DNA of 64,000 nucleotides from Crambe crambe. Taxonomy: Eukaryota > Porifera > Demospongiae > Poecilosclerida > Crambeidae. The notes under the pieces were generated by a model. It was not told the DNA's origin. It made no database searches and saw only the letters and a list, made by a program, of their open reading frames with translations. Positions within the stretch are counted from its first letter, which is position 1. Every line of letters starts with the position of its first letter. Both the position numbers and the translations under genes were made by a program. Below, piece by piece: positions 25,643-63,313 of this stretch. The DNA lies in the NCBI GenBank assembly GCA_963924555.1, contig OZ004586.1, positions 2,376,501 through 2,440,500 of the forward strand, in the 5' to 3' direction.

Positions 25643-26484
25643 TTAAATGTTATCGTATAGCTAATTTCTCTGCTGGAGGTAGTGGGGGACTTTGTGTTGT
25701 TGTTACATGTCCATATGCCGCACAAGCATCCATTTCCATTCCATCAGCAGGACCTCTGTCATAGATAATTGTAGCTGTCATCTACTGTATATACTCACTC
25801 TTTCTTTGTTCCTCCATCATGACGATGGTAGATACAGTAAATGACAAAGATGATGGAAGTGTAAAGTATGACAGTCAAGAGAAAGGTAATGACAACAGCA
25901 ACAGACAGTTTGAATGCCAAACCTGTATTAGAATTCAATTCTGTCCCCACAATATTAAAACATTATCTTTATGTTTTACTTGGATCTGTGCAAATGGTTG
26001 GTAGAGATGGTACCATTTCTGATATTCTGACCTCTGACCTTTCCCCCATAACAACTTCTCCATTAATTTCAGCTGTAGCAGCTACCTGAAACTGGTAATC
26101 TGTGATAACTGATCCAGTTAAATTCCTAATGACTATTGAGTTCATTGAACTAGGAACAATGATATTACGCTCTTCTTTACAACTTCCTATCAGAAGATAG
26201 TAGTAAACCATAGTTTATAATCATTGGGTTGTCGATACTCTCCCAGGAAACTCTGACTGAGGAAGTAGACACTGGCTCCACCATAAGTCTCATTACTACA
26301 GCTGCAGGTGGCATCAACTGTTAACATAATGCAGGGGGGATAACTCATGTAACTCAAGTGTAGTCTGATCAGGCAAATTGACAGGTTCTCCTTGACCTAT
26401 TCTTGTGTAAGCAGTGACTGTAATATCAGAGACTCTTGTTTGTGGAGTCAATGATGGGATAGTGAATGTAGTGCTCAAGTCTGT
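25643..26484 (-). pseudogene. FN3-4: truncated FN3 receptor pseudogene
   Basis: Only the 3' half remains: part of domain d (26484-26349), domain e (26301-25980), transmembrane exon (25922-25799) and tail (25755-25643). Homology stops abruptly at 26484 inside exon d; signal peptide and domains a to c are missing. Further lesions: the donor of exon d reads AT instead of GT (at about 26348), exon e lacks two bases (322 instead of 324), and the tail has a 4-bp insertion that turns TA into TAGCTA at 25658-25663, replacing the conserved YDNI ending with AIR and a stop. Not expected to give a receptor. Confidence 0.85.
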
Positions 26485-26974
26485 AATCCAGTCCAAAGAT
26501 CAAAGAAGGCGGCGTATGAAACACCAGCTTGCTGTAGACCAGCTAGAATGTTCCTTCTTTTATACTAGCTACTCTCAGAAAAGCTTAACGTGGAATTTTA
26601 ATGTTATTCATTGACCACGTTGCACGTTTATAATGACATGATATTCTTGGCTATACGCATTCCTCCTTTACAGATATCTCATATCACCAATTGAAAAGTT
26701 TTAAGTATTGAATTGCACTCGATGTATAAATTACATTCTGAACTTAAATGAGTCAAAGCACTGTCTGTATAATAAAGTAATAAAGTTAAAGTTAAGGACT
26801 ATTTAGTTGGGCGAGCAAACATCAACAATATTAGAAATGTATTTATATGTTACACGTACGTCACTCAAAATGCGCATGCGCTTACGCATGCGCATGAAAT
26901 AGCTACTAAGCAGCGTCATAATAAGCAATCATTTTCGTTAAGCTTGAAGTTGAAACACTATTGTAGCGAGTATT

Positions 26975-27341
26975 ATGGAACCCAGAGAACCAGAAAACAA
27001 GCGAAGGAGGGCCCCAGAACACCCTCTAGAAACTGACCAGCAAAGAAGAGCGAGACCTCATGAAAGAAATGAAAGAGACAGAGCTAGAAGGAGAACAGAG
27101 TCAAAGGAACAGAGAAAAACAAGACTAGCAAAGAAATGCGACAGATAGAGCCAGGAGGAGGGAATGTACAGAGTCAGCAGAAGATAATGCTGAAAGAGCA
27201 GAGCAAATGAGAGCTAGAAGGAGAGCAGAGTCAGCAGAACACAGAGCTGCCAGATTACAGCATATGAGGGCTCATTATTTGAGAGACTGGCTACTGAGTC
27301 TGAACAGGAGTGGTAGCCTGGGTTCAGAGAAGACACTCTAA
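26975..27341 (+). pseudogene. Arg/Glu-rich transposon-derived coding remnant
   Basis: From ATG 26975 the frame reads MEPREPENKRRRAP, stops at about 27148, and with one base shift continues with repeated RRRAESAEHRAARLQHMR-like units to a stop at 27341. Such repeats of R-R-R-x-E-S-x-E occur at the N-termini of Helitron- and helicase-type transposon proteins; I infer that origin. TTAGTTGGGCGAGCAA at about 26803 and its inverse at 27455 may be ends of the element. Confidence 0.4.
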
Positions 27342-27342
27342 T

Positions 27343-27640
27343 GCTAACTGGGAATGCACCAAGTCAGTTAACAACCTGAATAGCTAGATATTGAAAGTCA
27401 CTGTTGGGGCTATCATAAGTGAGGGAGGAGCACATTGAAATGACCACTGGCTGCTTGCTCGCCCAACTAATGCTATACGAGCTTGAATTACATTACATTA
27501 GTTGGGCGAGCAAGCAGCCAGTGGTCATTTCAATGTGCTCCTTCCTCACTTATGATTATATAGCCCCAACAGTGACTTTCGATATCTAGCTATTCAGGTT
27601 GTTAACTGACTTGGTGCATTCCCAGTTATATCTCATATAA
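27343..27640. repeat. Near-perfect inverted repeat (arms about 130 bp)
   Basis: 27347-27470 and 27498-27631 are reverse complements with few mismatches around a loop of about 27 bp. Each arm carries TTAGTTGGGCGAGCAA or its complement next to the loop. Part of the insertion in the pseudogene at 26690-28236. Confidence 0.8.
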
Positions 27641-28301
27641 ATTCAAGGATGGCTCTCATTTGCTCTGCTCTTGCATTAAAGTTAATAAAGTAAGGTTTTC
27701 ATTTCAGGCACACCAACAGAATTGGTGATGGAGATGTTGCTGTCGCCACACAAATTCACTCCTATGATGCCAAAGTCACTGGGATCTTGATAAGATATCA
27801 AGTTGTTCAGTGATAGGTTATAGCAATGATTGAAAATAAATGCAGTTCTTATGTTATCATACTGTAAGTACTGATGGTAGGAGTCATTGACATACCTCAC
27901 AGCTGATGCTGGAATAATACCTGCACAATTATTAGTGAACATGACTGAACTTATGGTGAGGTTGGAGACATTGAAGAACCCAAATCCCCCAAATCCACCA
28001 GGGCATTGAACTTCAACATGATCGTGTCCATTCTAAAGTAGTTCTTGCGATGGAGCAATTGTTATATTGGAGGTATTCTCACTCAGACAAAATGGATGTT
28101 GTCCATCGATAGTGTTCCACTAGGAGAACATAGATAGCTACTTCATCAGACTCTCACCATCATTAATGAGCACTGCTTCTGCTAGACTAGTAGCTAGTAA
28201 CAAGGTCACCAGAAAAACTTGACACATAATGCCCATTGCAATCAAGCTATAATTTGATAGCTATAGCATGACTTGTACATAAAAGAGGTCATAAGGTCTT
28301 A

Positions 28302-29106
28302 AAGTCTATTCGCGTTCACCTCGACCTTTTTATATCCGTGATAACTTGCTCAATTCTTGACCAATTTCAAAATTTCAAACACCAGCAGCTAGCTAATTAT
28401 CCGAGATTTATGATGATACTTTTTATAAAGACTCAATCCTTACCAGTAAGAAGTTAGCTGTATGTCCCATAAGCAAAGTATGGAGCTGCCATTCACCACA
28501 AGGAATGTAGTGCGCGCGATAGAGCAACAACAATGGCTGCCAGGTGCTACTGAATCTCGAGTAAGTTAGCTAGCTTACGCAAGTAACTGCTGGTTAAAAC
28601 TAAGAAATATGAATTATAGAATAGTTCAGCTAACTAGAAAACTGAATCACAGAATCTTTTAGCTAACTAGCTAGATCGATAGAATCAATGAGAAGTCACA
28701 TTTTCAAGTTTAAATACAATATTCGAATCACTGCTAATCTTCCCGGCAGTTTAGCTTATACAGAACATTCATTGCTAAACCCTCCAGGAGTTGCTGGGAT
28801 CAGGAAAGGAAGGAGCAGGCTTGAGATGTCAGCTGAACCACCCTACCTCTCTGGGGATTGTCCAGTAGAAGAACAAGGCAGAAGTCCAGGGAGAGTCATG
28901 GCAGGCATGAGAGAAAGTCACGCAAAAACGAGAAAAGAAACGAGAAAATAACTTGATCTAAACTGATAACATGTGGCTTGGCTCCAATTACCCGCGCATA
29001 CTTCTAGCCATAACTATGTGGCTAATTGGATTAATACGCGTTCTTACGTAAGCTTACTACACTACAGCTACTTCCGGGGTCGAGGTGAACGCGCGCGAAT
29101 AGACTT
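28302..29106. mobile_element. 805-bp non-autonomous TIR element
   Basis: Ends AAGTCTATTCGCG...TTCACCTCGACC are inverted at both borders (the right copy has four extra bases, CGCG). TA flanks both sides (28300-28301 and 29107-29108; TTA is also possible). It sits in sequence that is continuous in the related 5' flank at about 33145, so the insertion is certain. An 87-codon open frame at 28688-28951 has no recognisable domain. Confidence 0.75.
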
Positions 29107-29582
29107 TAGTTAGCTAGTCATGTGACACTTCTTAGGCTTGATGGTGTGTGGGTTAGTGGTTGGTAAGGCTTCACCACACAAAGGTGACTGATTCAACTGT
29201 GGACAGTATTGCCATATCCTTGTAGCTGTGATGTAATGATGCACATGGTCTGAATATAGAGAGATGCTGTCTACAAGAAGTAGCTAGCTTGAGACACAAG
29301 TTGAAATTAGCTGGTTGCTAAAAAAATTTTTTCATGATACAGTAGCTGGAAAAAGCATGAAGTGTCACAAAAATTTAATGATCAGCTATTGGAGATACAC
29401 ACACAAAATTAACTTGCTTTACTAGACATAGCTAACATGAAAATGAAACAAAATAACTTCAAAATTAGTCTCATTAGCTATGCTATCGTAGATTACACAA
29501 AATATTTTTAAAAAAAGTCAATCCACACACCAATATAAAAGAATGATATTCACATTTGAATATCGATCTTCAGTCAAAATTA
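29107..29582. other. Spacer between the TIR element and the membrane-family gene
   Basis: The first part continues the 5' flank of the decayed copy; the rest is the 3' flank of the gene ending at 29583. No gene seen. A candidate poly(A) signal lies 3' of the gene only in AT-rich, unspecific sequence. Confidence 0.4.
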
Positions 29583-32052: not shown

Positions 32053-33086
32053 CTTCACTTCACTGACCGAGTGGTTGGAGGAAGGAGTTTCCATGTAAAA
32101 TACGTTAAGTGACAATGGTGCAAAATATAGATCAGTAATACTTTCATCTAAGCAATAGCTGTAAGGAATTCCTTTGAATGTAACTTGAGAATCAGTTATA
32201 CTGTTAACAAATGCTATGCATACAGCTATATTAGTGCTTGCTGATATTGCAGTTGGCCTCATAACCATGTCAACATTAGCATTGAACTGTTGCTGTGATA
32301 CTAACAAAGTGAACCATCCATCAAGTACTGAAGATACTGATATATTATCAGAATTAACCAAATCAGTGATACCTTCCACCAATCTTGATTCAAGAATGGG
32401 AGATTTTTGAAGTATTGAATTTTGAAATACTGAATAGTACTCAATATGTAAATTACATTCTGAACTTGAAGAAGTCAAAGAACTGTCAGTGAAATAGAAC
32501 AAAGATTTTGAATTGTTTTCATGTAGCATTACAGAAGCACTAACACTGATTCTGCTGTGGTTACACAAGTTGATGCCGATTATGTTAAATTCAGTGGATT
32601 TCTGACAAGGTACAAGGTCCTTCAGTTTTAAGTTGTAGCAATGATTGAATAGAAAGGTGGTTTTTGTAGGTGTGTTATATAACAAATGCTGATCAGAATC
32701 ATTGACATACCTCACAGCTGATGCTGGAATAACACCTGCACAGTCATTGAACATGATCAAACTTATGGTGAGATTAGAGACATTAAAGAAACCGAATCCT
32801 CCAGATTTATGGGGGCATTCAACTTTGACAAGAGCATATCCATTCTTGATCAACTCTTGCGAAGGAGCAATAGTTATATTGGAGGTATTCTCAATGGATG
32901 TCATCCATCAATTATGAAGGAAGAGTTGTTAAGTTGAAGGTTGGTATTGGGAGGGAGAGTTCCACTAGGAGAACATAGATACTTTATCAGACTTTCACCA
33001 TCATTAATGAGCACTGTTTCTGTTAGACTAGTAACTAGTATGCTCACTAACAAGGTCACCAGAAAAGCTTGACACATAATGCCCAT
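32035..33086 (-). pseudogene. N-terminal part of the same gene, with a 10-bp deletion
   Basis: Starts at ATG 33086 with the signal peptide MGIMCQAFLVTLLVSILV. The frame stops at about 32901 because ten bases present in the copy at 1-402 are missing, then reopens in a second frame (32904 down to 32035) with Cys-poor, Asn-rich ectodomain sequence (VECPHKSGGFGFFNVSNL, FNHCYNLKLKDL). With the second shift near 32050 the whole gene has two frame breaks. Either it is a young pseudogene, or two sequence errors are present; the deletion is supported by the paralogue and the rest is well conserved. Confidence 0.65.
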
Positions 33087-33803
33087 TGCAATCAAAGCTA
33101 GTTAGCTATAGCATGACTTATACATAAAAAAAGGTCACAAGGTCTTAGTTAGTCATGTGATACTTCAAAGACTTGAGTGTGTGTGGGTTAGTGGCTGATA
33201 AGGCTTCACCACACAAATAGCCTGGGGATGGGGTTGACTTCCTTATTAGCTATAATAGAGGTTTTATTTACAAGAGGTAGCTACCTATTTGATTAGTGAG
33301 GCTGAATTAACAAGCTGGTTTGATAGCTAGCTACATGAAGCATGAAGTGCCATGCAATGAGGTAGCAACTGTAGAAGAGAATAACAAATATTGAGTGAAA
33401 TTGTAGAAAGGATAAGTCAGACTCTGAGATATAGTAATAGTGTGACATACAATACTAAATACTATAATCAAATATCAATTTCAATTTCAATATCAATATG
33501 TAGTCTCACAAGCCAGACCCCTTACCCAACCCACCTGCACGTGCGACATAAAATAATGAGGGGCATACACATAGCTAATAGCTACTATAGGCTTGTGGCT
33601 TCATGTGTACACCCATACAGGGATTTTTGACTTGCCATATAAGGAGGGGAAGATTTAGAAGCCATTGTTAATCATATGGAGAGACCAATATCAGTACATA
33701 GGAATGTACCAGTTCTCCCCACTCGTGAATGTAGCTAAATGTAAAATTATAGTAGCCAAATGTTGCATACCAGTACTCCAGAACTGCATGTATAATTGTT
33801 ACG
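33087..33803. other. Spacer upstream of the membrane-family gene
   Basis: Aligns with 403 to about 960, so it includes the family promoter, then grades into FN3-type spacer (CCATATAAGGAGGGGAAGATTT near 33637, also at 24612, 59453 and 63118). No gene seen. Confidence 0.5.
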
Positions 33804-34738: not shown

Positions 34739-35677
34739 TGGTACCAGTTCTCCCCATTCATGGCTGCTTTGCAGTTTCGCAATGACGATGTCAGAACAAA
34801 ATAGCTACAAGTTCAGTAGCTTGTTCTTAAAAAAATATTATCTACTGCTAGATAAGCTTGTACTTACAATAACTACTGTAGCATATAGCATAAACATAAT
34901 ACTATTTAAAGATTGATCAGCCCTAAAGTTACTCTAGACAATATACATAGTCTTTAAATAAAGTTTTTCTGGGATCCAGAGTTCATATTTCCCTAAAAGG
35001 TATAATAGTGACTCAAGAATGACATACTGTACGTACATTATCAAAATAACTCAGAATAGCTTCGATATTGGTTTACGTATGAGCATGGGGCCTCTACTGC
35101 TTTTGTGCTGTGAGAGGATCCTGTGATGATTGAAGTGACATATGAAGCGAAACTGCTTCAGTTTCCAAGGAAGACTTGCTGAACTGCCTTCTAACTACAT
35201 GCATGCATGCATAGCAATAGAGATGGCTACAATGACCAATGCAATGAATCACTGTGTAGCTACATTATTAACACACAGGTCCATCTTTGCAGGAAGGAGC
35301 TTGCTGAGCAGATATCATGCATGCATGTGTACTAGTAGCAACAGTAATCTTAAATGAGCATAGCTATGTCAATCAATCAATCAAGCTATTACTGTACAAC
35401 AGGAAAATTTAAGGGGTAAAAATTTTCATGGTTTAATACACAAAACAAGGGAATTATAATTGTAGTTCACACTTGGAATTTTCGCAAACCATGCATAAAA
35501 AATACACTATAGGGTATATAGCTAGCTATACATGTAATCATTTTAACATAGCTGTTAAGTTGAAGGATGCTAACTAGCTGCATGAAAATGAAACAAAACA
35601 CAAGTCTACTAGGGGCTAGTGCTGGGCTGGGGCTAGGGCTAGTGTTAAATAATTTATGAGAAGAGAATGTAGTTATT
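34739..35677. other. Spacer between the TIR element and FN3-5
   Basis: Common spacer block (GCTGCTTTGCAGTTTC, GATTGATCAGCCC, AATAAAGTTTTTCTGG) followed by sequence nearly identical to 4440-4867, the 3' flank of FN3-2. No gene seen. Confidence 0.5.
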
Positions 35678-42276: not shown

Positions 42277-42314
42277 GGTCCTCTATGAGAGTGTAAGTAG
42301 CTAGGGCTCTGTCA

Positions 42315-46208: not shown

Positions 46209-46239
46209 GATCCTCTGGTGGTGAACTATATAGCTAAAC

Positions 46240-46300
46240 TAACTTACTGGGTCTCGAGCTAGCTAGAGTAGGCAATTTTTTGAAAGCCACACCTACCTAC
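46240..46300 (-). promoter_or_regulatory. Putative FN3-6 promoter block
   Basis: ACTTACTGGGT, GAGTAGGCAATTTTT and GAAAGCCACACCTACC upstream of the start codon, as in sister genes. Confidence 0.45.
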
Positions 46301-46410
46301 TACCTACCAATTCTCCCCACTCATGAATGTAAATGTTTATGTTATAAATGTTGCATACATGTACCAGCACTCCAAATCTGAGCCTACTATAATTGTTATG
46401 GTACCAGTTC

Positions 46411-46590
46411 TACCATTCCTGAAAGACCTCAACAATGAGAAACTAATAGAAGTGGGTGGTGCATTAGTTACCTGCTCTTCAAAGAATGAAGACTCTTCCA
46501 GAAGACATGATAGCTGCATGGTTAAGGGAAGAAAGCTACGTCACTGAAACCAGTGGTCCTCCCAGTTGGGCCAGTTTGGTGACTGCCCTC
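46411..46590 (+). pseudogene. Death-domain-like gene fragment
   Basis: An insertion of about 170 bp relative to sister spacers. Plus strand reads LPFLKDLNNEKLIEVGGAL, then after a frame shift PALQRMKTLPEDMIAAWLRE, then SGPPSWASLVTAL. The order (leucine-rich start, W-L in the middle, PxW-x-x-L-V-x-A-L end) is that of Death-fold domains, which are abundant in sponge innate-immunity genes. One frame break and no flanking exons: a fossil piece. Assignment is by pattern only. Confidence 0.45.
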
Positions 46591-47389
46591 CCCCTTTCAT
46601 GGCTGCTTTGTAGTTTCACAATGACGATGAACAAAATCCAAGTTCAGTAGCTTGTTCTTAAAACAACAACAATCACAACAACATTAGCTATCATCCATGT
46701 AGCTAGTTAGATAAGCTAGCTACTTACAATAACATAATTATGATACTACTGTAAACACAATTACTAAAGATTGATCAGCCCTTATGTTACTCTAGACAAA
46801 TTATATGTTACTCTTATACTTAGCACTTAGCTAAGTACTAACCCTCAATGCACATGTAAGACATGATACTTAGCTAAAGGTTATTGTTTTGATTTGTTGC
46901 ATTTGGCTACAAGCCAACTAGCTTTGCAGCTAATATGAACACCACCAGTACAGACATACAGACACTATACACAGTAGCTATACATACAATATAATACAAT
47001 ACATTATCAATAGAGTTGGTGGCATGGTTAATTGTTCTTGAGTTACGCGTTTATAGTTAGTATCAGTATGATTGTGTGTTGTGTATGACTCAAGAATGAC
47101 ATACTGTACGTACATTATCAAAATAACTCAGAATAGCTTCAATATTGGTTTACGTATGAGCTTGGGGGCTCTACTGCTTTTGTGCTGTGAGAGGATCTTT
47201 AAAGTGATATACGTACTATTCATGTGAAGTGAAACTGCTTCAGTTTCCAAGGAAGACTTGCTGAACTGCCTTCTAACTGCATGCCAAATAGCTGCATACC
47301 ATAACCTGACATTATGCTATGATGATTATTCTGACATCATCATACAGAACAAACTGTCATGTCTTTATAGTTAACAAGTCACTTTAACT
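46591..47389. other. Spacer between the Death-like fragment and FN3-7
   Basis: Common spacer block (46600-46800) and the 3' flank shared with FN3-3 (47100-47390, identical landmark GAATAGCTTCAATATTGG). No gene seen. Confidence 0.5.
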
Positions 47390-50300: not shown

Positions 50301-53300
50301 ACTCACCGGGTTGCTGTACTTCAAAACGTTCACCGTCCGAATCGAGTCAAACTCTGTACAAAAAAATCTAAAGTCGGTTACCCGGCACAGAAAGTACGAA
50401 CAAGCATCTACAGTCAGAGTTATATTATATTTAGATACTACAACTATCCATCTATAAAACCTCCCGACATGTCACGTTCTAATTGCAAGCTTGCAAAAAT
50501 AAACAGCTGTAAAAATTCGCACTAATTTTCAGCGCACGCGCAATGCATACCCACGTGATTGAACCACTGTACATGTGGTTGATTCTGCTAAAGTGCTAAT
50601 CTGTGTCTAGCTTATCTGAAAGTTTAGATCGAGTCAGTAAAGGTAAGTCGTTATTCGGGGGGCTGGAGTACTTATCTTCCTAGGTGTAAAAAATCTAAGT
50701 ATCCTCGTCAGTGTACTATATCGAGCTGGCTACACTATTTATTTTACTGTTATCATCTATTAACCTAATAGATGGCTAAATATGCTGCTTTAAAAGAACG
50801 TATCGTTGTATCTAAAAATAATAGCTTATCCAATTATTCCCAATTATCCCGTCCATCCAATTATTCCCAATGGGATAGTGTAAGCATGTCTAAGGCCATG
50901 CAAGCGGTGGAGTTGGGGGTATCAATCAGACGTGCTTCTGAGATGTATGGTGTCCCTAAATCGACTTTACAAGATAGGTTATCTGGTAAAGTTCAACATG
51001 GCTGCCGACCAGGTGCACCATCATATTTGACACATCAAGAGGAAGAGGAGGTTAAAGCATTTTTAATCAAATGTGCAGGTATTGGATACCCCCATACAAT
51101 TTCTCAAGTATTAGCAATTGTACAACAAATTATTGAAAATAAAGGTATAGATCGTAAAGTTTCTCATGGCTGGTGGCAACGATTTTGTCAAAGGCACAAA
51201 GACCTATCACTTCGTACTGCTGTACCTCTTTCTTTGTCAAGGGCAAAGGCCACGGATAGTGAGTGTTTAGAAAGGTATTGTGATATGTTGGAAGATACCT
51301 TAAAAAAGAATAATATTTTTAATAATCCAATGCGTATATACAATTGTGATGAGACGGGAATGCCATTGAACCCCAAAGGTGTTAAGGTTATTGCTAAAAC
51401 TGGTTCAAAAGATGTCTCCTCAGTTAGTGGTGAAACAAAGTCACAGATTACTGTGTTAGCTTGTACGTGTGCTAATGGTACATATATCCCTCCATTTGTG
51501 CTATTTGATCGCAAGACTCTTAATCCTGAGTTAACTACTGGGGAAATACCAGGAACTTTATATGGCATGTCGGATACTGGATGGATGAACAGTGAATTTT
51601 TTATGTATTGGTTCTACAACCATTTTTTGAACTCTATTCCGTCTTTACGGCCAATTTTATTATTAATGGATGGGCACTCGAGTCACTATAACCCAGAAGT
51701 CATCAGGGCAGCAGCTGATGAGAAAATAATTCTTTTCACACTGCCACCCAACACCACCCACATTACTCAGCCCCTAGATAAAGGTGCTTTTAGCCCTCTC
51801 AAAACCTGCTGGAAACGTGTGTGCCATGAATTTTATACTAAGAATCCTGGAAGAGTAGTTTCTCGGTTCGATTTTTCATCCCTTTTCTCAGAAGCATGGA
51901 AGCTGTCCATGACCCCACATAATATTTTTGCAGGATTTCAAGCAACTGGTGTTTATCCATTTGACAGATGTCGAATACAGGTCAAAGTACCAGAAGATAA
52001 GCGCCCTAAATTCCAGCCAGAAAGTTTAGCTGAACGTACAGGTTTAGTATACATACCTCTATACAGTCCACTTCAACGTTCAGGATCTGAGCTATCTGAT
52101 TCTCGAAGTGATCATTCACCATTACAGAGATCATTGTCTATGGGTAATATTAGTAATTATTCCCCTGTTACACCTGTCATTCGTCTTAAGAAAGCAACAT
52201 CAGTAAGTCGCTTTCTCAATACTCCTCTTGCCCCAAGTAAGATTCCTACAAAAAGTGTTAAATCTTGTGGTAAAGTTCTGACTAGCCTTGAAAACCTGCA
52301 AATTTTAGAAGAAAAAGAAAAGGCAAAAGCAGAAGAACTAAAAAAGAAGGAAGAGCGTAAAGCTTTACGAGCAGAAAATGCTAGAAGGAGGGCAGAAAAG
52401 GCTGAAGAGAAACGACTGGCCAAAGCCAAATTACAGAAAAAAGGAATCAATATGACTGATCAAGACAAGTTTACAGAGGAAGAGATCTCTCTTTATAACA
52501 AACGCTATGAAAATGGATATGACCTCCCAGATGAGCGGTACTTCAGATGGCTTGATTTGAATCATCCAAGTGCTTCAGATCACTGTAAGTATGGTTTCAT
52601 GTGTTGCATGTTTATAGCTGTAGAATCTGCTACAGATCCCAGTGGAATTGCTTCCAATGGTGGTCGAGGAAAGAAAGGTGTGTTAGGTATGGTGTGCATT
52701 AATTTGATGTGCATCTATCCTTACATGCATGCAGGGTCTGTGACTGGAATCGTTGCTCCCAGTGGTGATCGAGGAAAGAAAGGTGTGTTGGGTATGGTGT
52801 GCATTAATGTGTATCTATCCTTACATGCATGCAGGGTCTGTGACTGTTCCTCCCAATGGTGGTCGAGGAAAGAAAGGTGTGTTGGGTGTGGTGTGCATTA
52901 ATTTGACATTCATCTATCCTTACATGCATGCAGGGTCTGTGACTGTTCCTCCCAGTGGTGGTCGAGGAAAGAAAGGTGTGTTGGGTGTGGTGTGCATTAA
53001 TTTGACATTCATCTATCCTTGCATGCATGCAGGGCCTGTGAACACTGATCCAAGTGGAATCGTTACTTCCAGTGGTGATCGAGGAAAAAAAGGTGTGTTG
53101 GGTATGGTGTGCATTAATGTGTATCTATCCTTACATGCATGCAGGGTCTGTGACTGTTCCTCCCAGTGGTGATCGAGGAAAGAAAGGTGTGTTAGGTATG
53201 GTGTGCATTAATTTGATGTGCATCTATCTTTATATGCATGCAGGGTCTGTGATCACTGATCCAAGTGGAATCGTTACTCCCAGTGGTGGTCGAGGAAAGA

Positions 53301-56300
53301 AAGGTGTGTTGGGTGTGGTGTGCATTAATTTGACATTCATCTATCCTTACATGCATGCAGGGTCTGTGATCACTGATCCAAGTGGAATCGTTACTCCCAG
53401 TGGTGGTTGAGGAAAAAAAGGTGTGTTGGGTGTGGTGTGCATTAATTTGATGTGCATCTATCCTTACATGCATGCAGGGTCTGTGACTGTTCCTCCCAGT
53501 GGTGATCGAGGAAAGAAAGGTGTGTTAGGTATGGTGTGCATTAATTTGATGTGCATCTATCTTTATATGCATGCAGGGTCTGTGATCACTGATCCAAGTG
53601 GAATCGTTACTCCCAGTGGTGGTCGAGGAAAGAAAGGTGTGTTGGGTATGGTGTGCATTAATGTGTATCTATCCTTACATGCATGCAGGGTCTGTGACTG
53701 TTCCTCCCAATGGTGGTCGAGGAAAGAAAGGTGTGTTGGGTATGGTGTGCATTAATTTGATGTGCATCTATCCTTACATGAATGCAGGGTCTGTGACTGT
53801 TCCTCCCAATGGTGGTCGAGGAAAGAAAGGTGTGTTGGGTATGGTGTGCATTAATTTGATGTGCATCTATCCTTACATGCATGCAGGGTCTGTGACTGTT
53901 CCTCCCAATGGTGGTCGAGGAAAGAAAGGTGTGTTGGGTATGGTGTGCATTAATTTGATGTACATCTATCCTTACATGCATGCAGGGTCTGTGATCACTG
54001 ATCCAAGTGGAAGCGTTACTCCCAGTGGTGGTCGAGGAAAGAAAGGTGTGTTAGGTATGATGTGAATTAATTTGATGTGCATCTATCCTTACATGCATGC
54101 AGGGTCTGTGATCACTGATCCAAGTGGAATCGTTACTCCCAGTGGTGTACCCAGTGGTCCAAATGGTAAAGGATTCGGTGCTGGTAGACCAAAGAAAGGT
54201 TTGTTTAGTGTGGTATGTTTATCTTGGACTAAATTATATGATAATACAGGTGTCTCCAAGTGCATGGAGCGTTCATGCAGTCATCCTAAAGGTTATAAAT
54301 GGGTGGAGTGCTCAGCTTGTAACAGGTGGTGGCATTGCAGTTGTGCTGGGGTACAATCCTACACTGCCAAGAATCCTTCTTTTGTATTCAACTGTTCAGA
54401 ATGTCAGTGATTATTATTGATATTAATTTTTTAAATAAGATTACGTCATAATATCGCGTGCGAAAATTAGTGCGAATTTTTACAGCTGTTTATTTTTGCA
54501 AGCTTGCAATTAGAACATGACATGTCGGGAGGTTTTATAGATGGATAGTTGTAGTATCTAAATATAATATAACTCTGACCGTAGATACTTGTTCGTACTT
54601 TCTGTGCCGGGTAACCGACTTTAGATTTTTTTGTACGGAGTTTGACTCGATTCGGACGGTGAACGTTTTGAAGTACAGCAACCAGGTGAGATGACCATTG
54701 CTGCTCTAAACCCGTTTACACGTAGTACTTGACTTCCTTTATAATCTGGTGAAAGAAACATAATCACAGCTCTATCCACTCCAGAGATATAGCTGTCCGT
54801 ATTTTGATATGTCCGGAAATCGGTGGTTTACTCTACAACTATCCATCTATAAAACCTCCCGACATGTCATGTTCTAATTGCAAGCTTGCAAAAATAAACA
54901 GCTGTAAAAATTCGCACTAATTTTCGCACGCGATATTATGACGTAATCTTATTTTAAAAAATTAATATCAATATAATCACTGACATTCTGAACAGTTGAA
55001 TACAAAAGAAGGATTCTTGGCAGTGTAGGATTGTACCCCAGCACAACTGCAATGCCACCACCTGTTACAAGCTGAGCACTCCACCCATTTATAACCTTTA
55101 GGATGACTGCATGAACGCTCCATGCACTTGGAGACACCTGTATTATCATATAATTTAGTCCAAGATAAACATACCACACTAAACAAACCTTTCTTTGGTC
55201 TACCAGCACCGAATCCTTTACCATTTGGACCACTGGGTACACCACTGGGAGTAACGATTCCACTTGGATCAGTGATCACAGACCCTGCATGCATGTAAGG
55301 ATAGATGTACATCAAATTAATTCACACCATACCTAACACACCTTTCTTTCCTCGACCACCACTGGGAGTAACGCTTCCACTTGGATCAGTGATCACAGAC
55401 CCTGCATGCATGTAAGGATAGATGTAAATTAATGCACACCATACCCAACACACCTTTCTTTCCTCGACCATCATTGGGAGGAACAGTCACAGACCCTGCA
55501 TGCATGTAAGGATAGATACACATTAATGCACACCATACCCAACACACCTTTCTTTCCTCGACCACCACTGGGAGTAACGATTCCACTTGGATCAGTGTTC
55601 ACAGACCCTGCATGCATGTAAGGATAGATGAATGTCAAATTAATGCACACCACACCCAATACACCTTTCTTTCCTCGACCATCACTGGGAGTAACGATTC
55701 CACTTGGATCAGTGATCACAGACCCTGCATGCATGTAAAGATAGATGCACATCAAATTAATGCACACCATACCTAACACACCTTTCTTTCCTCGATCACC
55801 ACTGGGAGGAACAGTCACAGACCCTGCATGCATGTAAGGATAGATACACATTAATGCACACCATACCCAACACACCTTTTTTTCCTCGATCACCACTGGG
55901 AGTAACGATTCCACTTTGATCAGTGATCACAGACCCTGCATGCATGTAAGGATAGATGAATGTCAAATTAATGCACACCACACCCAACACACCTTTCTTT
56001 CCTCGACCACCATTGGGAGGAACAGTCACAGACCCTGCATGCATGTAAGGATAGATGTAAATTAATGCACACCATACCCAACACACCTTTCTTTCCTCGA
56101 CCACCATTGGGAGGAACAGTCACAGACCCTGCATGCATGTAAGGATAGATACACATTAATGCACACCACACCTAACACACCTTTCTTTCCTCGATCACCA
56201 CTGGGAGTAACGATTCCACTTGGATCAGTGATCACAGACCCTGCATGCATGTAAGGATAGATGCACATCAAATTAATGCACACCATACCTAACACACCTT

Positions 56301-59297
56301 TCTTTCCTCGACCACCATTGGGAGGAACAGTCACAGACCCTGCATGCATGTAAGGATAGATACACATTAATGCACACCATACCCAACACACCTTTCTTTC
56401 CTCGACCACCACTGGGAGTAACGATTCCACTTGGATCAGTGATCACAGACCCTGCATGCATGTAAGGATAGATGAATGTCAAATTAATGCACACCATACC
56501 TAACACACCTTTCTTTCCTCGACCACCATTGGGAGGAACAGTCACAGACCCTGAATGCATGTAAGGATAGATACACATTAATGCACACCATACCCAACAC
56601 ACCTTTCTTTCCTCGATCACCACTGGGAGCAACGATTCCAGTCACAGACCCTGCATGCATGTAAGGATAGATGCACATCAAATTAATGCACACCATACCT
56701 AACACACCTTTCTTTCCTCGACCACCATTGGAAGCAATTCCACTGGGATCTGTAGCAGATTCTACAGCTATAAACATGCAACACATGAAACCATACTTAC
56801 AGTGATCTGAAGCACTTGGATGATTCAAATCAAGCCATCTGAAGTACCGCTCATCTGGGAGGTCATATCCATTTTCATAGCGTTTGTTATAAAGAGAGAT
56901 CTCTTCCTCTGTAAACTCGTCTTGATCAGTCATATTGATTCCTTTTTTCTGTAATTTGGCTTTGGCCAGTCGTTTCTCTTTAGCCTTTTCTGCCCTCCTT
57001 CTAGCATTTTCTGCTCGTAAAGCTTTACGCTCTTCCTTCTTTTTTAGTTCTTCTGCTTTTGCCTTTTCTTTTTCTTCTAAAATTTGCAGGTTTTCAAGGC
57101 TAGTCAGAACTTTACCACAAGATTTAACACTTTTTGTAGGAATCTTACTTGGGGCAAGAGGAGTATTGAGAAAGCGACTTACTGATGTTGCTTTCTTAAG
57201 ACGAATGACAGGTGTAACAGGGGAATAATTACTAATATTACCCATAGATAATGATCTCTGTAATGGTGAATGATCACTTCGAGAATCAATATCCTCCTCA
57301 CCAAGTGAATCACTAGAAAGTGATCTCTGAATATCATTATCAGATAGCTCAGATCCTGAACGTTGATGAAGTGGACTGTATAGAGGTATGTATACTAAAC
57401 CTGTACGTTCAGCTAAACTTTCTGGCTGGAATTTAGGGCGCTTATCTTCTGGTACTTTGACCTGTATTCGACATCTGTCAAATGGATAAACACCAGTTGC
57501 TTGAAATCCTGCAAAAATATTATGTGGGGTCATGGACAGCTTCCATGCTTCTGAGAAAAGGGATGAAAAATCGAACCGAGAAACTACTCTTCCAGGATTC
57601 TTAGTATAAAATTCATGGCACACACGTTTCCAGCAGGTTTTGAGAGGGCTAAAAGCACCTTTATCTAGGGGCTGAGTAATGTGGGTGGTGTTGGGTGGCA
57701 GTGTGAAAAGAATTATTTTCTCATCAGCTGCTGCCCTGATGACTTCTGGGTTATAGTGACTCGAGTGCCCATCCATTAATAATAAAATTGGCCGTACTGA
57801 TGGAATAGAGTTCAAAAAATGGTTGTAGAACCAATACATAAAAAATTCACTGTTCATCCACCCAGTATCCGACATGCCATATAAAGTTCCTGGTATTTCC
57901 CCAGTAGTTAACTCAGGATTAAGAGTCTTGCGATCAAATAGCACAAATGGAGGGATATATGTACCATTAGCACACGTACAAGCTAACACAGTAATCTGTG
58001 ACTTTGTTTCACCACTAACTGAGGAGACATCTTTTGAACCAGTTTTAGCAATAACCTTAACACCTTTGGGGTTCAATGGCATTCCTGTCTCATCACAATT
58101 GTATATACGCATTGGATTATTAAAAATATTATTCTTTTTTAAGGTATCTTCCAACATATCACAATACCTTTCTAAACACTCACTATCCATGGCCTTTGCC
58201 CTTGACAAAGAAAGAGGTACAGCAGTACGAAGTGATAGGTCTTTGTGCCTTTGACAAAATCGTTGCCACCAGCCATGAGAAACTTTACGATCTATACCTT
58301 TATTTTCAATAATTTGTTGTACAATTGCTAATACTTGAGAAATTGTATGGGGGTATCCAATACCTGCACATTTGATTAAAAATGCTTTAACCTCCTCTTC
58401 CTCTTGATGTGTCAAATATGATGGTGCACCTGGTCGGCAGCCATGTTGAACTTTACCAGATAACCTATCTTGTAAAGTCGATTTAGGGACACCATACATC
58501 TCAGAAGCACGTCTGATTGATACCCCCAACTCCACCGCTTGCATGGCCTTCGACATGCTTACACTATCCCATTGGGAATAATTGGATGGACGGGATAATT
58601 GGGAATAATTGGATAAGCTATTATTTTTAGATACAACGATACGTTCTTTTAAAGCAGCATATTTAGCCATCTATTAGGTTAATAGATGATAACAGTAAAA
58701 TAAATAGTGTAGCCAGCTCGATATAGTACACTGACGAGGATACTTAGATTTTTTACACCTATAAGATAAGTACTCCAGCCCCCCCGAATAACGACTTACC
58801 TTTACTGACTCGATCTAAACTTTCAGACAAGCTAGACACAGATTAGCACTTTAGCAGAATCAACCACAGTGGTTCAACACGTGGGTATGCATTGCGCGTG
58901 CGCTGAAAATTAGTGCGAATTTTTACAGCTGTTTATTTTTGCAAGCTTGCAATTAGAACGTGACATGTCGGGAGGTTTTATAGATGGATAGTTGTAGTAT
59001 CTAAATATAATATAACTCTGACTGTAGATGCTTGTTCGTACTTTCTGTGCCGGGTAACCGACTTTAGATTTTTTTGTACGGAGTTTGACTCGATTCGGAC
59101 GGTGAACGTTTTGAAGTACAGCAACCCGGTGAGTTGACCATTGCTGTTCTAAACCCGTTTACACGTAGTACTCGACTTCCTTTATCATCTGGCGAGAGAA
59201 ACATGATCACAGCTCTATCCACTCCGGAGATATAGCTGTCCGTATTTTGATGTGTCCGGAAATCGGTGGCTTACTCTAGCACACTGCTCTTCAACAT
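47390..59297 (-). CDS. FN3-7: five-FN3 receptor-like gene, signal exon split by nested transposons
   Basis: Exons 49419-49162 (a), 49107-48799 (b), 48743-48459 (c), 48404-48120 (d), 48055-47732 (e), 47673-47550 (transmembrane) and 47498-47390 (tail SPPLPPAEKLYDNI) are open and correctly spliced in phase. The signal-peptide exon lies in two pieces: its 5' end with ATG at 59297-59279 and its 3' end at 49876-49811. Joining them across one TA gives the standard 85-bp exon, so the 9.4-kb Pogo-C/D insertion landed inside the signal sequence. As it stands the gene has no start or signal peptide. In addition the normal acceptor before domain a is deleted (about ten bases); an in-frame AAG acceptor remains possible. 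Since the rest is undamaged the hit looks recent and would be reversible by precise excision. Confidence 0.8.
50772..54410 (+). CDS. Pogo-C transposase with mini-exon tail and PHD finger
   Basis: Exon 1 is 50772-52584 (604 codons plus one base, donor GTAAGT). Domains: psq-type helix-turn-helix (about residues 38-75), Tc5/CENP-B-type DNA-binding domain (GWWQRFCQRHKDLSLR, 133-148), DDE nuclease with aspartates 193 (NCDETG), 300 (MDGHSSHY) and 336 (TQPLDKG), Ser-rich linker, Lys/Glu/Ala coiled region (about 525-570) and EEISLYNKRYENGYDL. Then follow tandem mini-exons from 52618 (see array entry), a 96-bp exon 54103-54198 with a canonical AT-hook core (GFGAGRPKK) and the last exon 54250-54410 with a PHD finger (C-x4-C, C-x2-C, H-x2-C, C-x2-C; WVECSACNRWWHC) and TGA. 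All small introns are 51-60 bp GT-AG. Expected role: TA-site cut-and-paste transposase with chromatin- or DNA-binding tail. One mini-exon has a stop (53407-53409), which could truncate the tail unless skipped. Confidence 0.8.
52618..54198 (+). repeat. Pogo-C cassette array: tandem mini-exons with their introns
   Basis: Fourteen repeats of about 94-117 bp. Each contains an exon-like part starting GGTCTGTG and ending GGAAAGAAAG, then GTGTGTT...CATGCAG as an intron. Exon parts are 60 bp (20 codons, SVITDPSGIVTPSGGRGKK) or 42 bp (14 codons, SVTVPPNGGRGKK), always phase 1 at both sides, so any number or subset keeps the frame. The commonest intron form is 57 bp and also open in frame; shorter 52-bp introns are not divisible by three. 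The first unit, 52618-52677, is 60 bp and follows exon 1. The basic GRGKK is AT-hook-like. Confidence 0.8.
54977..58670 (-). CDS. Pogo-D transposase with mini-exon tail and PHD finger
   Basis: Near-identical to the Pogo-C gene. Exon 1 is 58670-56801 (623 codons plus one base), with the same psq, CENP-B-like and DDE domains and all three catalytic aspartates. Differences: about 19 extra residues in the Ser-rich linker (SPLHQRS and an added SLSSDSLGEEDI region) and a handful of substitutions (KAMDSE for KATDSE, SVRP for SLRP, AKEKR for AEEKR, DQDEF for DQDKF). Mini-exons run from 56767-56708 to 55284-55189, and the PHD exon 55137-54977 is identical in predicted protein. No stop seen in its cassettes, so this copy looks the more intact; only the insertion of Pogo-C into its 3' terminal repeat disturbs it. 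Confidence 0.82.
55189..56767 (-). repeat. Pogo-D cassette array
   Basis: Fourteen exon-plus-intron units of the same kind as in Pogo-C, in the opposite orientation. Order of long (L, 60 bp) and short (S, 42 bp) exon forms differs from Pogo-C: after the special first unit, D reads S L S L S S L S L L S L L and C reads S S L S L L S L S S S L L. Confidence 0.75.
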
Positions 59298-59928
59298 GGT
59301 CCTCTAGTGGTGAACCAAATAGCTAAGAGGTTTAGCAAACTAACCCACTGGGTCTAATGAGCAATTTTGCAAGCCACACCTACTTATACTAACACATCAT
59401 GCAGTATAGGCTTGTGGCTTCATGTGTACACCCATACAGGGATTTTTGACTTGCCATATAAGGAGGGGAAGATTTAGAAGCCACTGTTAATCATTATACT
59501 GAGAGTAGCTACATATGAATGTACCAGTTCTCTCCACTCATGAATGTAAATGTTATAAATTATAGTAAATGTTGATGGCTGCTTTGCAGTTTCGCAATGA
59601 CGATGACCAAAATACAAGTTCAGTAGCTTGTTCTTAAAAAACAACAAAAATAACATTAGCTAGCTACCCATGTAGCTACATAGCTAGATACGTAGGTTAA
59701 GCTAGCTACTGCATAAACATAATAGTGACTCAAGAATGACATACTGTATGTACATTATCAAATATCAAAATAACTCAGAATAGCTTCAATATTCGTTTAC
59801 GTATGAGCATGGGCCTCTAACCTGACATCTAGCTATAGCTAAATGCTATTATGATCATTCTGATATCATCATACGAACAAACTGTCATGTTTTTTTTTAG
59901 TTAACAAGTCACTTTAAGTTTGTTTATC
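59298..59928 (-). promoter_or_regulatory. FN3-7 promoter block and spacer to FN3-8
   Basis: 59341-59385 holds CCCACTGGGT and GCAAGCCACACCTACT, the conserved upstream block, now separated from most of FN3-7 by the transposons. The remainder is common spacer and the 3' flank of FN3-8 (AGTTAACAAGTCACTTTAA near 59899). No gene seen. Confidence 0.5.
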
Positions 59929-62900
59929 TTAAATGTTATCATATAATTTCTCTGCTGGAGGTAGCGGGGGACTTTGTGTTGTTGTTACATGTCCATATGC
60001 TGCACAAACATCCATTTCCATTCCATCAGCATGACCTCTGTGATAACAAACCTGATAACTGTAGCTGTCCTCTAGTGTATATATACTCACTCTTTCTTTG
60101 TTCCTCCATCATGACGATGGTAGATACAGTAAGTGACAAAGATGATGGAAGTGTTAAGTACGACAGTCAAGAGAAAGGTAATGACAACAGCAACAGACAG
60201 TTTGAATGCCAAACCTGTATTAGAATTTAATTCTATCCCCACTATATTAAAGCATTATCTTATACGTATATATTTTACTTGGATCTGTGCAAATGGTGGG
60301 TAGAGATGGTACCATTTCTGATATTCTGACCTCTGACCTTTCCCCCATAAAAATCTCTCCATTAATTTCAGCTGTAGCAGCTACCTGAAACTGGTAATCT
60401 GTGATAACTGATCCAGTTAAATTCCTAATGACTATTGAGTTCATTGAACTGGGAATAGTGACATTATTCTCTTCTTTACAACTTCCTATCTGAAGATAGT
60501 AGTAAACCGTATAGTTTATAATCATTGGGTTGTTGATACTCTCCCAGGAAACTCTGACTGAGGAAGTAGACACTGGTTCCACCATAAGTGTCATTACTAC
60601 AGCTGCAGGTGGCATCAATGAATATACGTAGTTAACTGTTAGAATAATGCATGCATTGTAACATAGCAAGTAATAACTGCAATATAGACTATTTCAACCG
60701 AGACCAAAATGACAGAGACTAAAATGACTGACACAAATCAGAAGCTTAAATATTTTTAGAAAAAACACAAGCGGATGATTAGTACAGAATTTAACCACAC
60801 AGTACTGATTGTCAATACATAATAATAATTATAGTTAACAGTATTCCACATGCATGTAGGGGGGATAACTCACGTAACTCAAGTGTACTCTGATCAGGTA
60901 AATTAGCAGGTTCTCCTTGACCTATTCCTGTGTAAGCAGTGACTGTAATATCAGAGACTCTTGTTCGTGGAGTCGATGATGAGATAGTGAATGTAGTGCT
61001 CAAGTCTGAGGTGTTGACTCTGACAGTATTGTTGCCATTGACTGTGTAAGTGACTTCATAACTGATGATGACTCCATTAGGTTCTTGAGGTGGACTCCAA
61101 GTGAGTACGATGGAAGTGAACTTAGGAGTACCAGCAAGGTTAGACACAGGACCAGGAGCTATACAGGAAGTGGTGAAAATTAGTTGTATAGAGCTAACAA
61201 TAATAAGCCATTACTTTCTTCTTCTGTCAGAATACTGGTTACATTAGTAAAGGGTCCAGTGCCATTGTCATTGACTCCAGCAACTCTGAAGGTGTAGTTT
61301 GTGTAAGGAGTGAGTCCACTAGCTGTGAAGGTCCTATTCACCACCACACCAGGGATCAGAGCCCCTCCCACTTCTTCAAATTCCACTGTGTAGTTAGAGA
61401 TTGGACCATTGCGTTCAATGCAGCTGATTTGTGTCCAGGACACACTGACTCTTCTGGAGGTGGTTGAGAGAGTGTTTATGTGTGGGGAAGCAGTAGGTGC
61501 TGCAGGCAGCAGAGCAAACCATTAAGCTATGTGATTTCAATGAATGTGGTCATACCAGCTGCCTTTGTAGTGAACTCTACAATAGGTATAAGAGTAGCAG
61601 TGAATCCACTTGGTAATATAACAGTAATGGTTATACTGTAAATACTGAATTCATGTAGGTTAGAAAATTCCACTGTGGAAATACCAGTAGTCATCTTGGA
61701 CTTATTATCCTCAACCACTGTACACAATTGTCTTGCACCAGTTAGCTACTCGTCTCAGTTCTACTCTATACTCATCCATTGGGAGACTGAGTGGAGGCTG
61801 GGTCCAGGATATGGTCACAGATGTGGCAGTTAGTGATGAGAATGTGATATTTATTGACCTGCTGAAATCTGATAGAACACTCATTAGTTACTGATTGTAC
61901 ATAATAACGGGCTGATCCAGAGAGGGTGAAATGGGTGACTTATCACCCCCCCCCCCTATGATATTCATGAGCAACAAAATTAATACTGACATTATTCATT
62001 AACAGAAATTAAACTAGCTACTGCTAGTCATTTTTCTTGGGTATTTCTGCTTAAAATTGTCACATAATGTCAAGCAATGATTCCCAAGTGCCCAGCCTTA
62101 CTTCTGTCATTGTTAACCAATGTGGTCAATCAAAAGTAGGTGTGGCCACTAAAATTATGAAATTTAGTTGTCACCCCTCTTTCTCAAATCCTGGATCAGC
62201 CCCTGATAATAAGTTACATTTCCTCAACTCTTACAGTGCCACTCACAGGTCCTACTACTATTGGAGTCCCATAAAGTGCAACCAGCCAATAATTAACTGT
62301 ACCAGGTGCCTGTCCTACATCACGACTAGATGCTGTAGATGCTACTGATATGCCAGCACTACCGAAGTCTGCACTTAAAGTTATTCGGTATCCCTCACTA
62401 GGAGGATTGGGTGGTAGTGTCCAGGAGATTCTCACTTTGTCTATCCCAATCTGTCTAACCATGAGGTTAGTAGGAGCTTGTTCTGTAATAATAGAGAAAC
62501 ATTTATTAGGTTAGTTATGATTGTTACATGTAGTAATAGCTATATTCCCATAAACCCTATAAAGACTTGTACATAGTCTAGCCAAATAATTGTCTGTATG
62601 AAATATATTGATATCTGCATAAACTGATAGAAGATGAGTGCTCAGGAAGATGTGGTTTGAGGAGGGATATGTTAGCTTAAAAAAGGGGGGGGGGGGTGCC
62701 CTGCTTATACAATTAAGAACCTGTAGCTAAGTGTAATCTGCATGACTTACTCTTTCAAAAAGTGATAGCTACTACCATACTGTCCTTCTAGCACACAGAG
62801 CATGTATCTTAGCTATTTAGCTAGCTGTTATGTTGAAGTTAGAGACACCATGATCACTGTGTCTAGCTCACCTTGACTCTGGACTGACATGACGAGAGTT

Positions 62901-62956
62901 GATACTAGACATAGCATCATCATTAGTACTTTGACCACACTACTGCTCTTCAACAT
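59929..62956 (-). pseudogene. FN3-8: five-FN3 receptor-like gene with a frameshift and a lost donor
   Basis: Exons 62956-62872 (signal peptide), 62482-62228 (a), 61868-61556 (b), 61499-61215 (c), 61158-60874 (d), 60602-60279 (e), 60214-60091 (transmembrane), 60037-59929 (tail, KLYDNI, TAA). Two lesions: exon b is 313 bp instead of 309 because TA became TAGCTA at 61743-61748, and the donor of exon a reads TT instead of GT (62227-62226 region, TTGAGG for GTGAGG). Intron a-b carries a 299-bp element and intron d-e an unexplained insertion (about 60656-60855). Otherwise all other exons are open and phase-compatible. The conserved tail proline GPADG reads GHADG. Probably inactivated recently. Confidence 0.75.
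61907..62205. mobile_element. 299-bp TIR element in an FN3-8 intron
   Basis: GGGCTGATCCAG near the left end and its inverse near the right; ATAATA repeated at 61901-61906 and 62206-62211. Sister introns (for example 49138-49150) lack it. No coding capacity. Confidence 0.65.
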
Positions 62957-63313
62957 GGTCCTCTGGTGGTGAACTAGCTATATAGTTAAGAGGTTTAGCA
63001 AACTAACTCACTGGGTCTAGCAATTTTGCAAGCCACACCTACATACTAAAACATCATGCAGTATTGACTTGTGGCTTGACATCATGCATGTGTACACCCA
63101 TACAGGATTTTTGACTTGCCATATAAGGAGGGGAAGATTTAGAAACCACTGCTAATCATTATACGTAATATTATGGAGAGCCCTATGAATGTACCACTCA
63201 TGAATGTTGCATACCATTTTACAATAACATAATTATGATTCTAGCTACAATAAACAAATACTCTTTACTAAAGATTGATCAGCCCTTATGTTACTCTAGA
63301 CAAATCACGTACA
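62957..63313 (-). promoter_or_regulatory. FN3-8 promoter block and upstream spacer
   Basis: 63001-63045 has ACTCACTGGGT and GCAAGCCACACCTACA, the conserved block. Further upstream the shared AAGGAGGGGAAGATTT (63123) and GATTGATCAGCCC (63272) spacer motifs. No gene. Confidence 0.45.

Follow-up and report, generated by a model that had tools for sequence, protein, structure and literature searches.

TAGCTA is the commonest hexamer in a 64,000-nucleotide stretch of the genome of the sponge Crambe crambe (GenBank assembly GCA_963924555.1, contig OZ004586.1, here C9, positions 2376501-2440500; hereafter the window), where it repeatedly stands at positions at which duplicated copies of the same DNA have plain TA. 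The scar pattern holds up on inspection, recurs in all parts of the sampled contigs and is of recent date. We propose that TAGCTA, together with a second form, TACGTA, represents excision footprints left by cut-and-paste transposons that target TA, an explanation to which we give a probability of about 0.7. The scars are derived 4-bp insertions at plain TA in which the two central bases (nn in TAnnTA) are mostly palindromic, and the same genome holds TA-flanked elements whose ends are of the kind needed, some of them in young copies, as well as one site seen empty, filled and scarred. Sampled loci outside the window are designated L and contigs C, each with a number.

Excess of TAGCTA and TACGTA

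The window contains 201 copies of TAGCTA (the runner-up hexamer has 107), against means of 23.9, 35.1 and 93.7 in Markov simulations of orders 1, 2 and 3 (40 per order; overall maximum 112), the words TAGC and GCTA being already contained in the order-3 model. TACGTA occurs 38 times, against means of 6.2, 8.3 and 15.9 (maximum 30). Among the related words, TAGGTA, TAATTA and TATGTA lie inside the simulated ranges whatever the order. TACCTA, with 26 copies, is just above the order-3 maximum of 25; TACATA (53) equals the order-1 maximum and is above that of order 3, and TATATA (61) surpasses every simulation at orders 1 and 2. A count of TAGCTA against shuffled sequence, which the first-pass annotation of this DNA had proposed as a check, thus gives an excess, and the excess extends beyond the window. 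In 17 random 10-kb loci from other places (170 kb), with TAnn × nnTA / nn as the expectation, TAGCTA was seen 279 times against 98.5 expected (2.83-fold) and TACGTA 56 times against 22.3 (2.51-fold). The remaining 14 TAnnTA words range from 0.95- to 1.54-fold, the latter value being reached by both TACATA/TATGTA and TAACTA/TAGTTA, so that only the two scar words exceed twofold. Under the same model the window gives 2.74-fold for TACGTA and 2.57-fold for TAGCTA. By raw count TAGCTA ranks fourth among the hexamers of the random loci, after AGAGAG, GAGAGA and TTTTTT.

Across the whole genome (143,139,886 bases, 119 contigs) TAGCTA occurs 225,395 times and its reversed control ATCGAT 19,934 times, and TAGCTAGCTAGCTA occurs 3,968 times against 37 for the reversed word; both ratios overstate the excess because the controls contain CpG, which is depleted here (observed/expected 0.34 in the random loci). 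TACGTA was counted 41,536 times and its reversed control ATGCAT, itself a repeated word, 90,712 times. Scaling up the random-locus model gives about 83,000 expected copies of TAGCTA and an excess of about 140,000. Within 12 bases of TAGCTA no flanking position carries more than 0.085 bits, and in the random loci the bases beside isolated scars do not differ from those beside any TA; with flanks almost free of information, a regulatory motif or a repeat end was ruled out as the source of the word. Rfam gave no match at gathering score across the window.

TGCATG, CATGCA and ATGCAT are also over-abundant (for example at window 25088 and 60651-60860), TGCATG occurring 87 times in the window. One derived insertion converts TG to TGCATG, and a 208-bp insertion sits in (TGCA) repeats; these words possibly reflect a second scar-like or microsatellite process.

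The scars are insertions at plain TA

The paired sites described by the first-pass annotation, nine with TAGCTA and six sister sites with TA, are all exactly placed and have matching flanks (Table 1). Alignment of paralogues, which it had recommended, gives the polarity of insertion at 25658, 61743 and 28135. At the best-covered sites the alignments identify the scar as the derived state: all 13 homologues have TA at 25658, all 10 at 61743, and all 12 at a TACGTA in L038 (5234). Within the window, L038 and L039, 136 TAGCTA sites have a homologue, which is 4 bp shorter at 22 of them, a number that includes added units and some events present in two copies. Polarised singleton insertions, defined as those that at least two homologues lack, with none having it and none in another state, are most often 4 bp long (17 of the 34 counted at the level of alignments). 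These 17 reduce to nearer 12 once the same event aligned in two ways is merged (25658/25661; 61739/61740/61743), namely three new TAGCTA, one new TACGTA, one added TAGC unit, one TAACTA and six of other kinds.

The youngest duplicate compared gives the clearest view. L039 (C9:2351501-2361500) duplicates window 43616-49877 and 59276-63041 at 0.7% divergence; over 9,979 aligned bases the two differ by 70 substitutions and 16 indels. All seven 4-bp indels lie at TA, so that five new scars and two added units stand against the 70 substitutions of this 10-kb duplicate. The new scars are TAGCTA at window 59506, window 61743 and L039 6690, and TACGTA at window 59689 and L039 6717, although for four of these five no third copy of equal length settles the direction; the added units are TAGC at L039 2604 and TACG at L039 3528. 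Apart from these, the 4-bp indels in other close pairs (at least 94% identity over more than 250 bp) consist of ATAT and TAAT.

All data taken together hold 76 distinct 4-bp insertion contexts, 24 of which have the form XYnnXY, with TA as XY in 18. Four TA cases in which the flank extends the match (three TAGCTA, one TACGTA) bring the TA/TAnnTA differences to 22; four further '3-bp' cases of the eight (CTGACTG, CATGCAT, TAGTTAG and TATATAT) were excluded. By central dinucleotide the 22 are GC (11), CG (4), AT (3), CA, TG, TC and AC (one each). Palindromes therefore make up 18 of the 22, where 4/16 would be expected if nn were free (binomial 3.6e-8, a value that treats the sites as independent, which is only roughly true). 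Alignments shorter than 80 bp or below 72% identity, gaps near alignment ends, and flanks matching at fewer than 8 of 10 positions were left out of the census. These filters place five pairs from the first-pass annotation (29111, 35939, 21668, 4853 and 4861) outside the 76, and they were compared by eye; window 7244 is counted among the 11 GC cases although its sister has GA, not TA, and the CTAGCTAG cases (28667 and L038 6720) were classed as tandem, outside the 22.

Resident TA-flanked elements

Four pogo-type elements, p1 to p4, lie in the window. A DDE_1 domain (PF03184) was found in frames of all four (E 1.8e-15 to 3.9e-21), HTH_psq in p2, p3 and p4, and HTH_Tnp_Tc5 in p3 and p4; the open frame of p1, which may lack an exon, gave no helix-turn-helix domain of Psq, CENP-B or Tc5 type. 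All four have terminal inverted repeats and, judged from their sequence, are assigned to the pogo superfamily of Tc1/mariner. The first-pass annotation had described all of them as TA-G...C-TA. That form holds for p1 (TA-GCG...CGC-TA) and p2 (TA-GAG...CTC-TA), whereas p3 and p4 have C...G ends (TA-CAAC...GTTG-TA), as the empty site at 50158 indicates. A TA also precedes p1-type left ends at eight other sites, which differ in their flanks (L040, L041, L042, L043, L020, L011, L007 and a diverged one in L044); the right end was read only at p1 and at a copy on C8 (L041/L046). Filled and empty TA sites could be paired for p4 and for the p1 relative on C8; no such pair was found for p2, and p3, in its inverted arrangement, gave no clean one. 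The two elements p3 and p4 lie in a large inverted duplication (window 50156-59279, 92% over 4.5 kb), within which tandem repeats occur at about 52.6-54.1 and 55.2-56.7 kb.

Beyond these four, filled/empty pairs show TA as the target of G...C, C...G and A...T elements alike. Among longer insertions between paralogues, clean pairs were obtained for p4 and for a miniature inverted-repeat transposable element (MITE) in L031, and a nested one for an insertion in L036. Other delimited TA elements begin CAGTGG, CCGTAC, CCGTAG, CACTG, CAGCGG, GGGACT, GCGGCG and AAGTC, among more; the CAGTGG and CACTG families have C...G ends, as p4 does. One G...C MITE of 560 bp, TA-GGGTAGG...CCTACCC-TA, was found nested in L021; its two 18-base ends have 91 and 88 exact matches, none of its best 40 matches falls below 97% identity, and TA stands at both ends of all 20 copies examined from among those 40. 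Near-identical copies and empty sites suggest that this MITE and other resident TA elements are young and candidates for current activity. Genome-wide there are at least 150 matches to DDE_1 and at least 151 to DDE_3 (Tc1/mariner).

Two candidates were set aside. The scar site at L039 6690 has 341 bp more in another copy, which was dropped as a filled state because its ends are unlike inverted repeats, and the net 4-bp excess of a MITE copy in L102 proved to be no scar but a pair of internal insertions of 2 bp each. An insertion of about 304 bp with ends CGGGCTGATCC...GGATCAGCCCCTG lies at TAA in the window (61907-62206) and in L039 (8869-9167) and is missing from L038; it resembles a Harbinger-type MITE. 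On C11, at about 1.6-3.8 Mb, many same-strand DDE_1 matches, many with a DDE_3 match 5-7 kb further on, extend over about 2.2 Mb, an arrangement resembling a large repeat unit with transposases of both types. The repeat at the insertion site in L001 spans the junction in 13 places among the matches listed (C17:6441-6445k, C18:5552-5556k and others), some with equal spacings across contigs, which suggests that it belongs to a larger dispersed repeat.

A site in three states and the search for element/scar pairs

One site on C17 was seen in three states. It is empty in two near-identical copies, L048 and L049 (GGGAAG-TA-GAAATG), filled in L033 by a 122-bp C...G MITE between two TA, and scarred in L047, which is otherwise nearly the same as L033 (GGGAAG-TATATA-GAAG). 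A 4-bp TAnnTA joint therefore stands where the nearest copy holds an element.

The searches for such cases scored only the best 40 candidates (of 452, of 3,362 and of 1,303), so that gapped copies were disfavoured. With the joined flanks of 13 elements (best 40 of 452), junction-spanning homologues were found at four sites, in 37 places among the matches listed; of the 15 places read, chosen partly for extra length, 14 have no 4-bp junction insertion and one, the C17 site above, has TATATA. With the joined flanks of 20 GGGTAGG MITEs, spanning homologues were found at six sites and TAGCTA was shown at none (best 40 of 3,362, letters read at two places). Longer insertions between paralogues in the window and the sampled loci showed no TAGCTA partner. 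The left flanks of L040, L042, L043, L007, L011 and L021 gave self-matches only, and a satellite in L020 took nearly all the scored places (best 40 of 1,303), a result that says little.

Proposed origin of the footprints

Based on these observations, we propose the following hypothetical sequence of events, in which the sources would be pogo and other Tc1/mariner-type elements and their MITEs: (i) insertion would duplicate the target TA; (ii) exit would leave both TA copies with one base from each inverted end between them, giving TA-GC-TA from G...C elements and TA-CG-TA from C...G elements; (iii) the scar would be palindromic since the ends are inverted copies of each other; (iv) decay of CpG would convert some TACGTA to TACATA or TATGTA (CA/TG); and (v) each scar would create new TA sites open to a further hit, with slippage adding more units. 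If one base is kept from each of two inverted ends, nn must be palindromic, which untemplated addition need not produce. The same rule predicts that C...G elements leave TACGTA, the second scar form, which the first-pass annotation had not mentioned. The CpG ratio of 0.34 is consistent with the milder excess of TACATA/TATGTA, though TAACTA/TAGTTA reach the same value.

The core of this scheme, a duplicated TA plus one base from each end, had been put forward by the first-pass annotation, and it gains from the second scar TACGTA, the filled/empty TA pairs and the palindromes. Several observations weigh against it. The joined-flank searches (best 40 candidates scored) gave no site of the kind that would join element and scar most directly, where one copy holds a pogo insertion or other G...C element and another copy holds TAGCTA, and this missing pair is the main gap. 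The four homologues read at the p1-family site on C8 (L041/L046) have TA in three cases and CA in one; homologues of GGGTAGG sites are of equal length or 1 bp longer or shorter, and the single one that is 4 bp longer has TAATTA at a neighbouring TA. The scar on C17 is TATATA, whereas a C...G element predicts TACGTA; two later transitions, dinucleotide slippage or a looser rule for that family could account for it. The extrapolated excess of TAGCTA far outnumbers the G...C elements seen, and many exits per element are therefore needed. Only some of the 22 TA/TAnnTA differences could be polarised; the TC case among them (L038 3018, with four other carriers and one copy lacking it) resembles loss in one copy, and the TAACTA at 24333 obeys no simple rule. 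In the window TAGGTA/TACCTA reach 1.6-fold. Other palindromes that contain CpG are also high under a model of the same type (TGCGCA 33 against 12.6, GCCGGC 8 against 2.8), which makes the count of TACGTA weaker evidence than that of TAGCTA; the case for TACGTA therefore rests on the observed insertions.

Tandem units are a further difficulty. The proposal that they arise by re-use of the newly made TA explains them only in part: runs of TA(GCTA)n in the random loci comprise 214 single, 22 double and 7 triple, so that 29 of 243 have two or more units, against about 8 of 243 in a rough estimate for random re-hitting that assumes about 2% of TA sites to be hit again. Slippage or local preference therefore contributes. 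Neighbours of mixed type, TAGCTACGTA/TACGTAGCTA, could not be produced by slippage; they number four in the random loci and six in the window, and they add little, with a rough chance expectation of about two to three in each set.

Among other explanations, a Tc1-type exit stands first, although we consider it unlikely. A two-base overhang from one end would be kept, so that the self-complementary GC overhangs of GC...GC ends would religate to TAGCTA, and CG...CG ends would give TACGTA. Elements of the p1 type do begin GC, as does the element at L021 7562-8732 (GCGGCG), DDE_3 domains are numerous, and footprints of two to four bases are reported for Tc1/mariner in the accessible portion of PMC7913693. 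However, every delimited TA element that starts with C begins CA or CC and none begins CG, yet TACGTA inserts at TA. GG/CC ends would also predict TAGGTA/TACCTA, which are only 1.18-fold in the random loci despite their level in the window, and GA/TC ends would predict TAGATA/TATCTA, at 1.25-fold in the random loci and 1.39-fold in the window; the 22 differences include a single TC and neither GG nor CC.

Less probable again is an origin without a transposon, in which staggered breaks at TA have their 5' overhangs filled and a polymerase adds one untemplated G or C to each end. This would produce the same TA-n-n-TA form at ordinary TA sites, where the scars do lie, and the level of TAGGTA/TACCTA in the window fits it. 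Under such addition, though, these two words should equal TAGCTA plus TACGTA, and neither GG nor CC occurs among the 22; it also leaves the 18 palindromes unexplained, and on C17 a 4-bp scar occupies a known element site.

Slippage growth of (TAGC)n, or the reverse, loss of TAGC from an older TAGCTA, we regard as very improbable as the origin. Extra units have been added to existing scars (24290, L039 2604 and L039 3528), and runs exceed the re-hitting estimate. A plain TA, however, offers no GC template for a new unit, and the first-pass annotation was right that slippage fails there: the best-covered sites are insertions (13/13, 10/10 and 12/12), the polarised events include no exact six-base TAGCTA that one copy lacks while two or more others carry it, and new cases arise at plain TA and not by growth from an existing unit, extra units being secondary. 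That TAGCTA is the end or part of a dispersed repeat family and merely copied with it has next to no chance, since new cases arise singly within paralogues and the flanks are those of any TA, even if element ends beginning TAGC exist (p1, L021). Excision of TA-targeting transposons thus remains our preferred explanation, with G...C elements as the probable source of TAGCTA.

Effects on genes and transposon copies

The first-pass annotation had three coding scars shifting the frame, a claim that fares differently at each site. At 61743 the 4-bp scar interrupts a minus-strand fn3 frame (PF00041) that is open in a sister at 23338-23700(-) and in L039 at 8496-8849(-) (E 2e-8 and 1e-9), the latter being a 97.6% copy; a further sister at 45289-45651(-) is open as well. 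A frame shift at 28135 is plausible: in one sister a minus-strand frame without a Pfam match runs for 149 codons up to the window end, which truncates it, and the scarred copy has none as long. No domain turned up at 25658, where a frame shift was not established. A pogo-type element copy on C9 (L002 1292-1298) has TAGCTA where L003 and L004, both more than 98% identical, have TA; its open frame of 393 codons, against 549 in L003, ends about 70 codons sooner, and the rest of the difference lies at the other end. The fn3-containing family occurs in two clusters on C9 (C9:2341459-2457891 and C9:2793526-3423003), with 77 matches to window 21692-24476.

Table 1. Elements, scars and related sites in the window, with positions counted from its first base
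Feature	Position	Strand	Remarks
p1, pogo-type, TA-GCGTAAGTCATC...GATGACTTACGC-TA, both TA included, G...C ends	9605-12922	+	DDE_1 frame 10322-12052
p2, pogo-type, TA-GAGTGAGACACC...GGTGTGTCACTC-TA, both TA included, G...C ends	13429-18658	+	DDE_1 and HTH_psq frame 14373-15710
p3, pogo-type, TA-CAACTATCC...GGATAGTTG-TA, C...G ends	50439-54553	+	DDE_1, HTH_psq, HTH_Tnp_Tc5 frame 50772-52898
p4, pogo-type, same family as p3, TA-CAACTATCC...GGATAGTTG-TA, C...G ends	54834-58996	-	DDE_1 frame 56487-58670(-)
Empty TA site (gatac-TA-gagtaag), flanks as p4	50148-50175		TA at 50158
MITE, TA-AAGTCTATTCGCG...GCGCGAATAGACTT-TA, A...T ends	28300-29108		Missing from sister at 33072-33217
TAGCTA scar, fn3 exon copy	61743-61748		TA in 10/10 homologues
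TAGCTA scar	25658-25663		TA in 13/13 homologues
TAGCTA scar	28135-28140		TA in 2/2 homologues
TAGCTA scar, 2 bp past end of inserted MITE 28300-29108	29111-29116		Sister 33150 has TA
TAGCTA scar	35939-35944		Sister 5141 has TA
TAGCTA scar	21668-21673		Sister 35001 has TA
TAGCTA scar	62975-62980		6 homologues: TA 1 (24513), CA 3, TAGCTA 1 (L039), other 4 bp nearby 1 (L038)
Two TAGCTA scars, starts 8 bp apart	4853-4866		Sister 35670-35675 has TA at both
TAGCTA scar	4587-4592		TA in 1/1 homologue (35434)
TAGCTA within MITE copy	28668-28673		Other copy (L035 8569) has TA; alternative: CTAG duplication
TAGCTA scar	59506-59511		L039 duplicate has TA
TACGTA scar	59689-59694		L039 duplicate has TA
Added unit TAGCTAGCTA	24290-24299		TAGCTA in 5/5 homologues
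TAACTA insertion at TA, non-palindromic exception	24333-24338		TA in 7/7 homologues

Relation to known systems and significance

The pogo-like element Fot1 of Fusarium leaves a 4-bp footprint of TA plus two bases, as here, the two bases being A/T in its case. In the accessible parts of the respective papers, the footprint of Sleeping Beauty is given as TAG(T/A)CTA (PMC2874221), and footprints of Tc1/mariner elements are put at 2-4 bp and those of ZB at 0 to 3 bp (PMC7913693). The scars described here share with Sleeping Beauty and ZB a duplicated TA with a few end bases between the two copies after end joining, and differ in being mostly a two-base palindrome and in their genome scale. Passer, of the pogo superfamily, is likewise a pogo-type element leaving short footprints, of 0 to 4 bp in cell culture according to the portion of PMC9976928 available; here, in contrast, the footprints are a standing genomic feature. 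Putative historic footprints of Stowaway in the beta-amylase genes of Triticeae, as described in the available part of PMC1925063, also come from TA-targeting MITEs and include re-insertion beside an old footprint; they are ragged end fragments of 1-4 bp at single genes, whereas in C. crambe one dominant form occupies very many sites. The accessible text of PMC4832277 and PMC2170065 holds nothing on the joints left by pogo exit, and a literature search that covered few subscription journals gave no account of any genome in which a footprint ranks with the most frequent hexamers. Excision footprints have been described singly.

We consider it somewhat more probable than the converse that transposon exit is a main source of small mutations in this genome, that it has made one hexamer the commonest of the window and the fourth of the random loci, that it breaks a gene copy and a transposon copy, and that it records the end class of the departed element (GC or CG) as a readable log. 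If so, a single assembly would allow counts of how often TA transposons leave, which targets they choose and how their exits are repaired, and footprints would form a leading class of small indels, with a fixed four-base and frame-shifting form. They would also set a trap for models of indels and microsatellites, a leading hexamer being a repair product and not a motif.

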